Source: Acetivibrio thermocellus ATCC 27405
GTDB taxonomy: Bacteria; Bacillota; Clostridia; Acetivibrionales; Acetivibrionaceae
Reading direction: 5' to 3'
DNA: 64,000 nucleotides
Assembly (NCBI RefSeq): GCF_000015865.1
Contig: NC_009012.1
Span: forward strand, 806,001 to 870,000
Positions 3,447 through 9,599 of the stretch are shown piece after piece; the stretch's first letter is position 1, and each line of letters begins with the position of its first letter. The position numbers were made by a program, and so were the translations under genes. Under the pieces are notes generated by a model. The model saw only the letters and a program-made list of their open reading frames with translations. It ran no database searches and had not been told where the DNA came from.

Positions 3447-4553
3447 ATGCTGCTGGATTTGTTTATGAAAAAGACTTCAATGGTATGTATAGATGTCGGG
3501 TATCGAAATATAAAAGTTGTTGAAGTCGCCGTAAAGAAGAATAATAATATTTTTATTGAAAATTACGGTATTGTTCCGACCCCGCCTGATTGCATTAAGA
3601 ACGGTGCAATATATGACGTTGACAGGGTATTGAGCGTGATTAAAAGCGTTATAAGAGAGCAAAACATGAAAGCTAAAAATGCAAAAATTATAATGTCCGG
3701 AACAAACATAATAACAAGAATTTACTTAATTGACAAAGTACAGGGAGAAAGCGAAGATTTCACCGTAAAGAACAGTATGCCTCAATTTCTCCCCATTGAT
3801 ATAGATAATTACAGAGTTGACTATAAAATTCTTCAGACAATAAAGGAAAAAGGCAGTGAAAAATACAAAGTTTTTGTGACGGCAGTACCTAAAAACATCC
3901 TTCAAAGTTATGTTGACGTGTTGCAAGGTTTGGATTTAAAGCCTCTGGCTGTTGACATACCGGCAAATAGTACTGCAAAATTTTTTAACAGGGAAATTCT
4001 CACAAGAGATATGGATGAATATTATTCCAAGAGGAAGTATAAAAAAGTGGAAAGTGACACTTTTGCAGTATTGGACTTTGGATCTGAGACGACAATTGTT
4101 AATTTTCTTAAAGACAGAGTGCTTGAATTTAACAAAGTTATTCTTTCCGGAAGTTCCAATATTGACGAGCATATTGCAAGGGAACTCAATATAAGTCTTC
4201 AGGAAGCTGAAAGACTTAAGAAAACATATGGAATGACTCCCCCCAACAATCTTTCAAAAAGAGAACATGTAATAACTTACGGAAAAGTCAGCAATTTTAT
4301 TGAAAGGCTTACCCGGCAGATAGCAAAGTGTTTTGAATTTTATCTTGAAAGGTGTTATGGTACTCCGATTTCAAAGATTTTTATTATAGGTGGAGGTTCA
4401 CAGCTTAGCGGACTTAATCAATATTTGTTTTCAACGTTCAATGTCCCGGTTTATCCCGTAGGACTTTTGAATCTCAAAGGAGTTGAGCTTAAGAAAAATC
4501 TTGACAAAGATAAACTCAATTACCTGATAAATGCTGTGGGAATATCCCTTTAA
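3447..4553 (+). CDS. pilM: PilM-like actin-fold ATPase (type IV pilus assembly)
   Basis: Protein of 368 residues with the PilM/FtsA-like fold: an N-terminal phosphate-1 motif (VCIDVGYRNIKVVEV), a central phosphate-2 motif (FAVLDFGSETTIV), and a C-terminal adenosine motif (KIFIIGGGSQLSGL). PilM normally sits on the cytoplasmic face of the membrane and binds the N-terminus of PilN in type IV pilus machines. Here it stands alone: no pilN, pilO or pilB is next to it, so it may serve a remote pilus locus or have another role. A GGGGG ribosome site lies 12 bases before ATG 3447; an internal ATG at residue 7 is possible. Two pairs of direct repeats lie just upstream. Confidence 0.82.
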   Translation: MLLDLFMKKTSMVCIDVGYRNIKVVEVAVKKNNNIFIENYGIVPTPPDCIKNGAIYDVDRVLSVIKSVIREQNMKAKNAKIIMSGTNIITRIYLIDKVQGESEDFTVKNSMPQFLPIDIDNYRVDYKILQTIKEKGSEKYKVFVTAVPKNILQSYVDVLQGLDLKPLAVDIPANSTAKFFNREILTRDMDEYYSKRKYKKVESDTFAVLDFGSETTIVNFLKDRVLEFNKVILSGSSNIDEHIARELNISLQEAERLKKTYGMTPPNNLSKREHVITYGKVSNFIERLTRQIAKCFEFYLERCYGTPISKIFIIGGGSQLSGLNQYLFSTFNVPVYPVGLLNLKGVELKKNLDKDKLNYLINAVGISL

Positions 4554-4644
4554 TTCCTTTAATTTTTAGAAAGGTGAAAATTGTTTTTTTATTTTTGTCT
4601 ACTTAATTCAAAGGTAAAATCATTAAGTAAATGAAGTTTACAGC

Positions 4645-4680
4645 AAACTCCAGTTTTTGTTCACTGGAGTTTTTATTTTT
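4645..4680 (+). terminator. intrinsic terminator after pilM
   Basis: AAACTCCAGT (4645-4654) pairs perfectly with ACTGGAGTTT (4663-4672) around an 8-base loop and runs into TTTTTATTTTT. Confidence 0.85.
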
Positions 4681-4808
4681 ATTATCATATTTTGTTTTTG
4701 CATCAAATTAAACAAATTAACATATAAATAAAATAAATTAATTTTTTATTAGACAAAAATTAAAATTTATCGTATAATAAATTAAAAAAGTTAATAGAGG
4801 TGATTTTA

Positions 4809-4982
4809 ATGGAAAAGGAAAACACTATGGTTAAATCAATAATAACGATAATTGTTGCCATAATATTGCTGGTTATAGTCGTTAAATTGGTTTCATGGGC
4901 TGTTTACAAGCTTTTACCCATAGCTATAGTTATAATTGCGGCATACATAGTATACAAAGTTGTCACATCAAGGAAAAATTAA
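4809..4982 (+). CDS. small single-pass membrane protein, unknown
   Basis: 57 residues from ATG 4809, which has an AGAGGTGA ribosome site at a good distance; a GTG three codons earlier overlaps that site and is unlikely. After a short polar N-terminus (MEKENTMVK) almost the whole chain is hydrophobic Ile/Val-rich sequence, interrupted once near WAVYKLLP, so it may cross the membrane once or form a hairpin. It ends in a basic tail (SRKN). No family recognised. It stands alone between two terminators. Confidence 0.6.
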   Translation: MEKENTMVKSIITIIVAIILLVIVVKLVSWAVYKLLPIAIVIIAAYIVYKVVTSRKN

Positions 4983-4990
4983 ACATATAT

Positions 4991-5029
4991 TATACCCGGT
5001 ATTATCCAAGTTTTCCAATACCGGGTATA
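4991..5029 (+). terminator. 13-bp perfect hairpin after the small membrane protein
   Basis: TATACCCGGTATT pairs perfectly with AATACCGGGTATA around a 13-base loop. No long T run follows on either strand, so termination would depend on stem strength. It lies between convergent genes. Confidence 0.55.
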
Positions 5030-5068
5030 TACTTTGATTTCCAAAATTTATAAAACGAATTTGAACGT

Positions 5069-5668
5069 TTAAAGAATGAGCTTTATACATTCCCAAAGAA
5101 CATCGCATAGCTCCTTTGATTCAAAGTCGCTTCCATAGCCGGAAAGATTGTAGTCTTTGCTTCCCATTTCCACGGCAAATTGGCCGTTGTCAGCCAACAG
5201 GTAAAAATCGTACAACTTGGACTTGTGTTTGTCTAAAATTTCAATCATCTGAGCGATACTTAACAGAGGAAGGCAATCTTCTTTCGAAAAGGTAGTTGGA
5301 CGGATATATAAACTGTCAAAGTTTTCATTTTCGGTTGAATCTTCGTTAATATCATATTCGCTGTCGTAATTGTCGTCGAAATCCGAATCCAATTCTTCAA
5401 AATCAAAATCTTCTGAAGCTTCTTGTCCGGAAAAATTATCACTATTCGTATTGTTTAAAAACGCTAAATCATGGAGAACAAAGCGGTTGTGATAGACCGA
5501 GACATCTCCTACAACAAATTCGATTTGCTGGTATTCTTCTGTTTCCGCATTGGTACATATGTTGGCAACGGCAAGATCATATTTTTGGGGATACCACATT
5601 TCATTCAAATGCATTTTTTGAGCATCGGTAAGTTGTGCAAGATCTTCTTTTGTAATATACCTTTTCAT
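5069..5668 (-). CDS. hypothetical protein with a strongly acidic central linker
   Basis: 199 residues, no signal peptide or membrane segment. The N-terminal third (MKRYITKEDLAQL, then WYPQKYDL) and the C-terminal third (SIAQMIEILDKHKSKLYDFYLL, GSDFESKELCDVLWECIKLIL) look folded, while roughly residues 80-120 are a low-complexity run of Asp/Glu/Ser with repeated DFDD/DSEYD patterns. I do not recognise a family. GGAGGG stands 12 bases upstream of the ATG. Gene is alone on this strand. Confidence 0.65.
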   Translation of the reverse strand: MKRYITKEDLAQLTDAQKMHLNEMWYPQKYDLAVANICTNAETEEYQQIEFVVGDVSVYHNRFVLHDLAFLNNTNSDNFSGQEASEDFDFEELDSDFDDNYDSEYDINEDSTENENFDSLYIRPTTFSKEDCLPLLSIAQMIEILDKHKSKLYDFYLLADNGQFAVEMGSKDYNLSGYGSDFESKELCDVLWECIKLIL

Positions 5669-5880
5669 TTTAGAATCAATCCCTCCGTTTACTCAAAGCT
5701 TGCCTGACTTTGAGGCCATACTTGAGTTTTTGCTTATCGACCTTTATAAAAAATTTGCAGTATTATAATATCATATTTTGTTTCCAAATTATATATTTAG
5801 TTTTTAATTTGGTTGTCTGAATATTAGAATATTTATGTAAAAGTACAAATAAAATTAGTATTAGGGAGGTGTGAAATTAT

Positions 5881-6432
5881 ATGAAATGTCCTGTCTGTAA
5901 AAACATATTTCTTGAAAAAACGAGTTTGCTTGACGAGTTGTATGCATATTCCTGTAAGTCCTGCGGCGGAAACTGGATGAGATATGAAGATTATTGGAAA
6001 TGGCATGAAAGCAACCCTAATCCGGCAAACAAACCCCTTGATATAAAAACTCATTTGCCGGTGAATGACATCATCCAGGCCAAAATATGTCCGGATTGAG
6101 GTAGAATACTCATAAAATACAGAGTTGACAACAGGTTGGATTTTTATGTGGAGCATTGCGGCAATTGTAATGGAATATGGTTTGATAAAAACGAGTGGGA
6201 TAATATTAAGCTAAACAATCTGCACGGACAGATACACCACTTTTTTACAAAACCTTGGCAAAAAAGAATTCGGGAGGAAGCAGCCAGGGAAAACCTTCAA
6301 GACAAATATATAAAGAAGTTTGGACGTTGGGATTATGAAAGGTTGAAAGAAATGAGGGAATGGATATACAAACAGGAAAAAAAGAACGAAATGCTCTCCT
6401 ACCTTCTTGATGAAGATCCGTACAAAATATAA
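5881..6432 (+). pseudogene. double zinc-ribbon (zf-TFIIB-like) protein interrupted by an in-frame TGA
   Basis: One reading frame of 183 codons runs from ATG 5881 (GGGAGGTG ribosome site) to the TAA at 6430-6432, broken only by TGA at 6097-6099 (codon 73). The first half has ribbon 1 (MKCPVCKN ... YSCKSCGGNW); the second ribbon reads ICPD-TGA-GRILIKY ... HCGNCNGIWFD. The TGA therefore replaces the second cysteine of a CPXC knuckle, so TGC or TGT to TGA is the simplest explanation. The part after the stop continues with a charged helical region to DPYKI. A TTG at 6136 could restart translation but would lack half the ribbon. No convincing selenocysteine insertion hairpin follows the TGA. Function of the family is unknown. 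Confidence 0.75.
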
Positions 6433-6447
6433 AAGAATTGTCGTAAT

Positions 6448-6935
6448 TTATTTTTTGGCTTTATGGTCTAATTTTAAGTTAATCTTTTTGCAAATTTGTT
6501 TTTGTATAATGTAACCGGCAAATATTCCTATTGCCATGCAAATTAAAGGAAGCCACACCGGACCGAAAAGCACACCGTTAATATTAAAGGATGGGGAATA
6601 TACGGTGCCAACCGTTCCTAAGTATGCTGCAAACACATAAGGAAGAAAAGCCATAGGCGAATTATCTCCTTTTGCGTATTTGTAAGCATCCCAGATTACA
6701 TAAAGATATAATGACGGATAAAACATCAGCCATTGATAATTGGCATTATTGACAGCCTCAGCTATATTTCCTGTAAAACTGTATATTATGATACTGTTTA
6801 AATTGGAGTAATGATTTATTAACAGTTCGAGAATCAAAAAAAAATACCTTTAACTATTTGACCGTTCAGAAGTTGTCCAAGACCCGGAAAAGCTATACTC
6901 CACATCATTTTTTCAATTTTATCATTTATTTTCAT
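6448..6935 (-). pseudogene. small multi-pass membrane protein split by a one-base slip in an A9/T9 run
   Basis: Reading the minus strand from ATG at 6935 (GGAG 11 bases upstream) gives MKINDKIEKMMWSIAFPGLG, then QLLNGQIVKGIFF, and then a stop at the T9 run (plus-strand A9, 6836-6844). One extra T would continue in frame into LILELLINHYSN and 129 more residues with several membrane helices (SLYLYVIWDAYKYA, LICMAIGIFAGYII) and a basic tail (NLKLDHKAKK). The motif PGLGQLLNGQIVKG is typical of small TM2-like membrane proteins. Either the gene is a fresh pseudogene, expression depends on polymerase slippage at the run, or the run was miscounted. Confidence 0.75.
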
Positions 6936-7152
6936 AACTAAGTATACTCCATTGTATTTTTATAAATTTTCTATTTAAATAAAATAAAAAATTTATTTGT
7001 ACAATTAGTATTTATCCATGGTATGATATATATACATATGGATTATTTTATATTTTATGGATTTTACAATGGTCAAATGTATTGATTGCCTGAAGGAAAG
7101 CGGCTAATGTAAATTATAAATATAGAAACTGCTTACCAAGGAGAGAAAACAT

Positions 7153-9599
7153 ATGTTAAAGAAAAAACAATAATATCTCTTGTACTGGCAGCAATAATTC
7201 TGGGGAGTATTATTCAGCCTTTTGAAATTGCCAATGCTCAGTATTACCGTGAGGGAACGGGAAGTTATACCGTAGTTTTGCCACCGGGTGCTAAGGTACC
7301 TCAGGCAGAGATTTACAAGACATCCAATTTACAGGGGGCAGTTCCGACCAACAGCTGGGAAAGCTCAATTTTATGGAATCAATATTCACTTCCGATATAT
7401 GCTCATCCTTTGACATTTAAATTTAAAGCCGAAGGTATTGAAGTAGGAAAGCCTGCATTGGGAGGCTCGGGAATAGCTTATTTTGGCGCCCATAAAAATG
7501 ACTTTACCGTTGGACACTCATCTGTCTACACTTTTCCTGATGCAAGGGCGGATAAAATATCCGATTTTGCCGTCGATGCGGTTATGGCTTCAGGTTCAGG
7601 CAGTATCAAGGCTACATTGATGAAGGGAAGTCCTTATGCTTATTTTGTTTTTACAGGCGGAAATCCCAGAATTGATTTTTCCGGTACTCCTACAGTGTTT
7701 TACGGGGATTCCGGCAGCCAATGCCTTGGCGTTACAATAAACGGTGTAAATTACGGGCTTTTTGCTCCGTCTGGCTCAAAATGGCAGGGAATTGGAACAG
7801 GTACGATAACTTGCATACTTCCGGCGGGAAAAAACTATTTTTCAATTGCGGTTTTACCTGACAACACAGTTTCCACTCTTACATATTATAAAGATTACGC
7901 CTACTGCTTTGTGACAGATACAAAAGTGGAATGGAGCTACAATGAGACAGAAAGCACTCTTACCACCACTTTTACGGCAGAAGTTTCCGTAAAGGAAGGG
8001 ACAAACAAAGGCACAATTCTTGCCCTTTACCCTCATCAATGGCGAAACAATCCGCATATTTTGCCTCTTCCATATACTTATTCGACACTGAGAGGCATAA
8101 TGAAAACAATTCAAGGTACAAGCTTTAAAACTGTATACCGCTACCATGGAATTTTGCCCAATCTCCCTGACAAAGGAACCTACGACAGGGAAGCATTGAA
8201 CAGATATATCAATGAACTGGCTTTGCAGGCAGACGCTCCTGTTGCCGTTGACACCTATTGGTTTGGAAAGCATCTTGGCAAGCTTTCATGCGCCCTTCCC
8301 ATTGCGGAGCAGCTTGGAAATATTTCTGCAAAAGACCGCTTTATAAGCTTTATGAAATCATCTTTGGAAGACTGGTTTACCGCAAAAGAAGGAGAAACGG
8401 CAAAACTATTCTATTACGACAGTAACTGGGGAACTTTGATAGGTTACCCTTCAAGCTACGGAAGTGATGAAGAGTTAAATGACCATCATTTTCATTACGG
8501 TTATTTTCTTCACGCCGCGGCCCAAATAGCGTTAAGAGACCCGCAATGGGCATCCCGTGACAATTGGGGAGCAATGGTTGAGCTCTTAATCAAGGATATT
8601 GCAAACTGGGACAGAAATGACACAAGGTTTCCTTTCCTAAGAAATTTTGACCCCTACGAGGGCCATTCCTGGGCTTCGGGTCATGCCGGATTTGCCGACG
8701 GCAACAATCAAGAGTCATCATCGGAGGCCATCAACGCATGGCAGGCAATAATTTTATGGGGAGAAGCAACAGGAAACAAAACGATAAGAGACCTTGGAAT
8801 TTATCTTTATACCACTGAAGTTGAAGCTGTCTGCAATTACTGGTTTGATTTGTACAAAGACATATTTTCACCTTCCTATGGACATAATTACGCTTCCATG
8901 GTGTGGGGAGGCAAATACTGCCATGAAATCTGGTGGAACGGTACAAATTCCGAAAAGCATGGCATAAACTTTTTGCCAATCACAGCCGCTTCATTGTATC
9001 TTGGAAAAGACCCGAATTATATAAAGCAAAACTATGAGGAGATGTTAAGAGAGTGCGGAACGTCACAGCCTCCCAATTGGAAGGATATACAGTATATGTA
9101 TTATGCCCTTTATGATCCTGCGGCGGCTAAAAATATGTGGAACGAAAGCATTGTTCCGGAAGACGGAGAAAGCAAAGCCCATACTTATCACTGGATTTGC
9201 AACCTTGACAGTTTGGGGCTTCCTGATTTCAGTGTTACTGCAGACACACCCCTCTACTCGGTATTTAATAAAAACAACATCAGAACCTATGTTGTTTACA
9301 ATGCTTCATCGTCTGCAAAAAAGGTTACTTTTTCCGACGGAAAAGTAATGACGGTGGGGCCTCATTCCATGGCAGTTTCAACCGGCAGTGAAAGTGAGGT
9401 TTTGGCCGGAGATTTAAACGGTGACGGCAAAATAAACTCCACAGACATAAGCCTTATGAAGAGATACCTTTTAAAGCAAATTGTAGACCTGCCGGTGGAA
9501 GATGATATTAAAGCTGCAGACATAAACAAAGACGGCAAAGTTAATTCAACCGACATGTCGATTCTAAAAAGAGTGATATTGAGAAATTATCCGCTTTAA
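7153..9599 (+). CDS. cellulosomal GH81 endo-beta-1,3-glucanase with type I dockerin; signal peptide out of frame
   Basis: The catalytic region (about residues 1-690, counted from codon 7278) is a family GH81 laminarinase: PTNSWESSILW near the start, NDHHFHYGY with the expected catalytic Asp at D402, and NNQESSSEAINAW with conserved E479 and E483. A short linker leads to two dockerin repeats (about 711-773: DLNGDGKINSTDISLMKRYL and DINKDGKVNSTDMSILKRVI), which would anchor the enzyme to scaffoldin cohesins; the Ser-Thr pairs are the usual type I recognition residues. The frame is open from 7113, but no normal start precedes TTG 7278. ATG 7153, with an AAGGAGAG ribosome site, encodes MLKKK and would read into a signal peptide (ISLVLAAIILGS ... 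ANAQ) only if the A6 run at 7162-7167 had seven As. Confidence 0.9.

Follow-up and report, generated by a model that had tools for sequence, protein, structure and literature searches.

In Acetivibrio thermocellus ATCC 27405, a small conserved gene for a double zinc-ribbon protein carries a single in-frame TGA at a zinc-ligand cysteine codon, and this TGA is not a recoding event but an ordinary disabling point change, whether real or apparent and ordinary either way. We favour, with a probability of roughly 0.6, a real and recent strain-level mutation, which would be one of three lesions within 1.1 kb. The window analysed here, the whole stretch of 64,000 nucleotides, corresponds to positions 806001-870000 of the single-contig genome (3,843,301 bases), and its relevant features are listed in Table 1.

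Table 1. Coordinates of the interrupted gene, its parts and the affected neighbouring genes (window numbering unless stated otherwise).
Feature	Position	Strand	Remarks
Interrupted double zinc-ribbon protein gene	5881..6432	+	183 residues; PF13453 (Zn_ribbon_TFIIB) twice, plus helical C-terminal part
In-frame TGA, codon 73	6097..6099	+	TGC/TGT (Cys) in close relatives; second ligand of second CxxC...CxxC ribbon
TGA in genome numbering	812097-812099		
Pre-stop open part, 72 codons	5881..6096	+	first zinc ribbon retained: C3, C6, C25, C28
Post-stop part	6100..6432	+	remainder of second ribbon (C93, C96) and helical region
Probable small membrane-protein gene, split	6448..6936	-	one-base shortfall at T run near 6838-6847 (coding strand GGTATTTTTTTTTGATTCTC)
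GH81 glucanase-dockerin gene	7153..9599	+	ATG 7153-7155 one base out of conserved frame, past AAAAAA near 7163-7168

Translation of the frame gave 183 residues with one internal stop, located where the sequence reads ICPD-stop-GRILIKY, in agreement with the first-pass annotation, which had described the frame as broken by this TGA only. The protein has eight ribbon cysteines (residues 3, 6, 25, 28, 70, 73, 93 and 96), of which number 73 is replaced by the TGA, so that the placement of the stop at a zinc-ligand codon of the second ribbon, as proposed at the outset, is also borne out. With an X at the stop, the frame scored 46.1 bits against PF13453 (cut-off 22) in two matching stretches, and the protein of an intact relative scored 44.8 bits against the same cut-off; the gene product is thus a double zinc-ribbon protein of this family, with two CxxC...CxxC ribbons above the Pfam cut-off. 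A confident AlphaFold model of the Acetivibrio straminisolvens protein (29 sequences; mean pLDDT 89.5) consists of two beta ribbons followed by helices.

A tblastn search with the entire frame, including the part beyond the TGA, detected homologues without any stop in four species of the same genus; they share 73-88% identity with it along 182-183 residues. Overall, matches to the protein were present in nine of 60 related genomes, the source genome counted among the nine, in collections holding one genome per species; viral contigs scanned for the DNA of this gene yielded no match. Codon 73 is TGC or TGT in all six closest complete relatives (TGC in A. mesophilus, A. straminisolvens and two others, TGT in two), from which a single change would suffice to give TGA, as had been suggested from the sequence of the window. 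Among 35 homologues from GTDB genomes of diverse phyla, the codon is TGC in 22, TGT in 10, a Ser codon in 3 and TGA in none. Whether all homologues carry Cys at this position, a question raised by the first-pass annotation, is therefore answered affirmatively for 32 of the 35 and negatively for the three with Ser. The PF13453 proteins of A. mesophilus and A. straminisolvens share their length, eight-cysteine pattern and C-terminal part with the window copy (88% identity), but have Cys73 where the window copy has the TGA. As in a recent nonsense allele, the stop is missing from the relatives and the remainder of the frame is open. A distant homologue in another genome of the order (1501-1878 of its piece), whose match is confined to its second half, contains an in-frame TAA and is possibly another, independent broken copy.

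The part of the frame beyond the stop has a dN/dS of 0.014-0.022 against the two closest species. In the lineage of the window, we counted 0 amino-acid-changing and 16 silent changes past the stop, where neutrality would predict approximately 72 changing substitutions alongside the 16 silent ones; the downstream codons are indeed undamaged, as had been noted. If the post-stop part has been neutral since the stop arose, these parsimony counts limit the time since the stop, as a rough bound, to no more than roughly 4% of the branch. Because of this imbalance, the stop appears either to be younger than that or to be absent from the DNA, i.e. the damage is, as judged from substitution counts, very recent or not in the DNA at all.

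The location of a UGA exactly at a cysteine codon is what a selenocysteine codon would look like, since bacterial selenoprotein genes likewise have a TGA aligned to the Cys of their homologues. Nevertheless, insertion of selenocysteine at this UGA, one of the readings put forward by the first-pass annotation together with a search for sel genes, has a negligible probability in view of the genome content. No match to selA was found in the source genome or in any of six relatives; E. coli served as the positive control. For selB, nothing exceeded the cut-off of 242: the best match (191.8 bits) is a 421-codon frame adjoining an EF-G-like match, and its length and neighbour indicate EF-Tu. The best selD match remained at 83 bits (cut-off 125) and probably represents HypE or related proteins, and the best tRNA-Sec match, at 44 bits (cut-off 47), is a tRNA-Ser with anticodon UGA. 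No SECIS-like fold follows the TGA, as the first-pass annotation had observed: between 6085 and 6170, the RNA is no more stably folded than shuffled sequences (z 0.65), and Rfam gave no match over 4500-8000. Unlike in bacterial selenoprotein genes, neither Sec machinery nor SECIS accompanies the window case, no homologue has a TGA at this position, and Cys73 is a structural zinc ligand, not part of a redox-active site, whereas selenocysteine is usually located at redox-active sites (PMC1794560).

The alternative decoding of TGA as Trp or Cys, which had also been considered, is rejected on the basis of the translation apparatus: none of the 56 tRNAs, all typed with ARAGORN, has a UCA anticodon, and prfB (RF2) is present above cut-off. 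Genome-wide UGA recoding is dismissed as well, given that across 221 orthologous ORFs (∼340 kb) compared with A. mesophilus the zinc-ribbon gene is the only clean case of TGA for Cys. Of the internal stops flagged in this comparison, most belong either to antisense ORFs or to over-long ORFs, in which they precede the true start. Two instances of TGA opposite Trp were seen outside the window. One belongs to a decayed gene ∼1.5-1.9 kb before the window (genome ∼804.1-804.5 kb) that also contains a frameshift and whose counterpart in A. mesophilus is an intact ORF of 218 residues; the other lies ∼211.8 kb before the window (genome ∼594.2 kb), in a locally divergent N-terminal stretch relative to a 335-residue A. 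mesophilus ORF, and probably reflects a difference in start site or in local reading frame.

Ordinary read-through was weighed separately. Low-level decoding of the stop by a near-cognate tRNA could supply some full-length protein that selection tolerates or uses; the complete conservation of the downstream part agrees with this, and a basal level is compatible with the sequence data. However, the stop is missing from all relatives, so that a conserved read-through programme does not exist; in addition, no structure lies downstream of the TGA, TGA followed by G is not a classic leaky stop context, and near-cognate insertion would not reliably place Cys at a zinc ligand. We therefore consider this reading improbable. 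Still more remote, albeit not to the same degree as selenocysteine, is a scenario in which the UGA is read through by an unrecognised route, requiring neither Sec machinery nor a UCA tRNA, and often enough to keep the full-length protein under selection. Re-initiation past the stop was rejected too: translation from the next start, TTG 6136, would yield a product lacking the initial half of the second ribbon, and no well-spaced Shine-Dalgarno sequence was seen upstream of it.

The two genes downstream are affected by one-base lesions of their own (Table 1). The counterpart of the probable membrane-protein gene is an intact 170-residue ORF in A. straminisolvens and is missing at this place in A. 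mesophilus. In the GH81 gene, the ATG with the signal-peptide start is in frame in four relatives and off by one base here, where the sequence is a base short following the A run, and the conserved frame contains no ATG, GTG or TTG upstream of 7278. Lineage-specific changes in the GH81 gene amount to 33 changing and 190 silent, compared with 42 and 190 in the sister lineage, and both genes look otherwise maintained. Altogether, three one-base lesions fall in adjacent genes within 1,075 bp, with few others in ∼340 kb. When 4-10 lesions were placed at random over 310 kb, the simulated chance of such a cluster was 0.0002-0.004, in a test that is post hoc, having been framed with the cluster in view and with the neighbouring genes inspected more closely than the rest. 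A cluster by chance is thus unlikely, and the clustering would reflect either recent damage in this region or low-quality reference sequence.

These two possibilities are the ones between which the evidence has to be divided. That the reference contains a base-call or finishing error, and that the gene of the living strain is intact with TGC or TGT at codon 73, is a serious though clearly less probable alternative to a real mutation. The total lack of decay past the stop and the presence of three one-base lesions within 1.1 kb of adjacent, otherwise conserved genes also fit a poor reference patch, and resequencing of wild-type ATCC 27405 found 20 putative differences from the reference (PMC3804516). 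The same figure is genome-wide, however, and corresponds to a low error rate; moreover, the region has no general excess of odd substitutions, as the absence of changing substitutions beside the 16 silent ones illustrates.

Published proteomics bears on the same question through the GH81 gene. This gene corresponds to Cthe_0660, and the adjacent GH43 dockerin gene to Cthe_0661, in a table from the literature (PMC6083626); papers retrieved for locus tags around the zinc-ribbon gene deal with the GH81 gene only. In the cellulosome of ATCC 27405, the GH81 protein went undetected in every condition (PMC2668762), whereas it was detected in strain DSM 1313 (PMC5604425), as a real frameshift would give. 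This contrast speaks for a real lesion and against a reference error, but the non-detection may simply be due to low expression, GH81 counts being very low (PMC3990059). Peptide evidence for an already annotated pseudogene, left unnamed in the main text, is given in a re-annotation paper (PMC3880215). On balance, a real recent strain lesion is the most likely explanation and is favoured over a reference error. Of the four readings offered by the first-pass annotation, a recent nonsense mutation and a sequence error thus survive, based on the conserved Cys, the undamaged downstream part and the two adjoining lesions, while recoding does not.

Taken together, these results suggest a model in which a one-base nonsense change from Cys TGC or TGT to TGA would have hit a zinc-ribbon gene on which purifying selection had apparently acted strongly until very recently. 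RF2 would end translation after codon 72, so that only the first zinc ribbon would be made in full and the second one would be lost along with the helical C-terminal part; owing to this loss, the truncated protein is probably non-functional in ATCC 27405. That the stop falls on a zinc ligand calls for no particular explanation, because TGC and TGT are one change away from TGA and a short protein with eight ligand codons offers several such targets. Similar to recent single-lesion bacterial pseudogenes (nonsense or frameshift alleles), one disabling base interrupts a frame that is otherwise undamaged; unlike in the usual cases, three adjacent genes are hit within 1.1 kb, and an error in the reference keeps a substantial minority share of the probability.

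What is new here are the lesions in the two downstream genes. The case also calls for caution, as a TGA at a Cys codon can resemble selenocysteine in a genome that nonetheless lacks the Sec machinery. The lesion cluster may explain why the GH81 protein escapes detection in ATCC 27405 and is found in DSM 1313; alternatively, it may be the signature of faulty sequence in a widely used reference genome.
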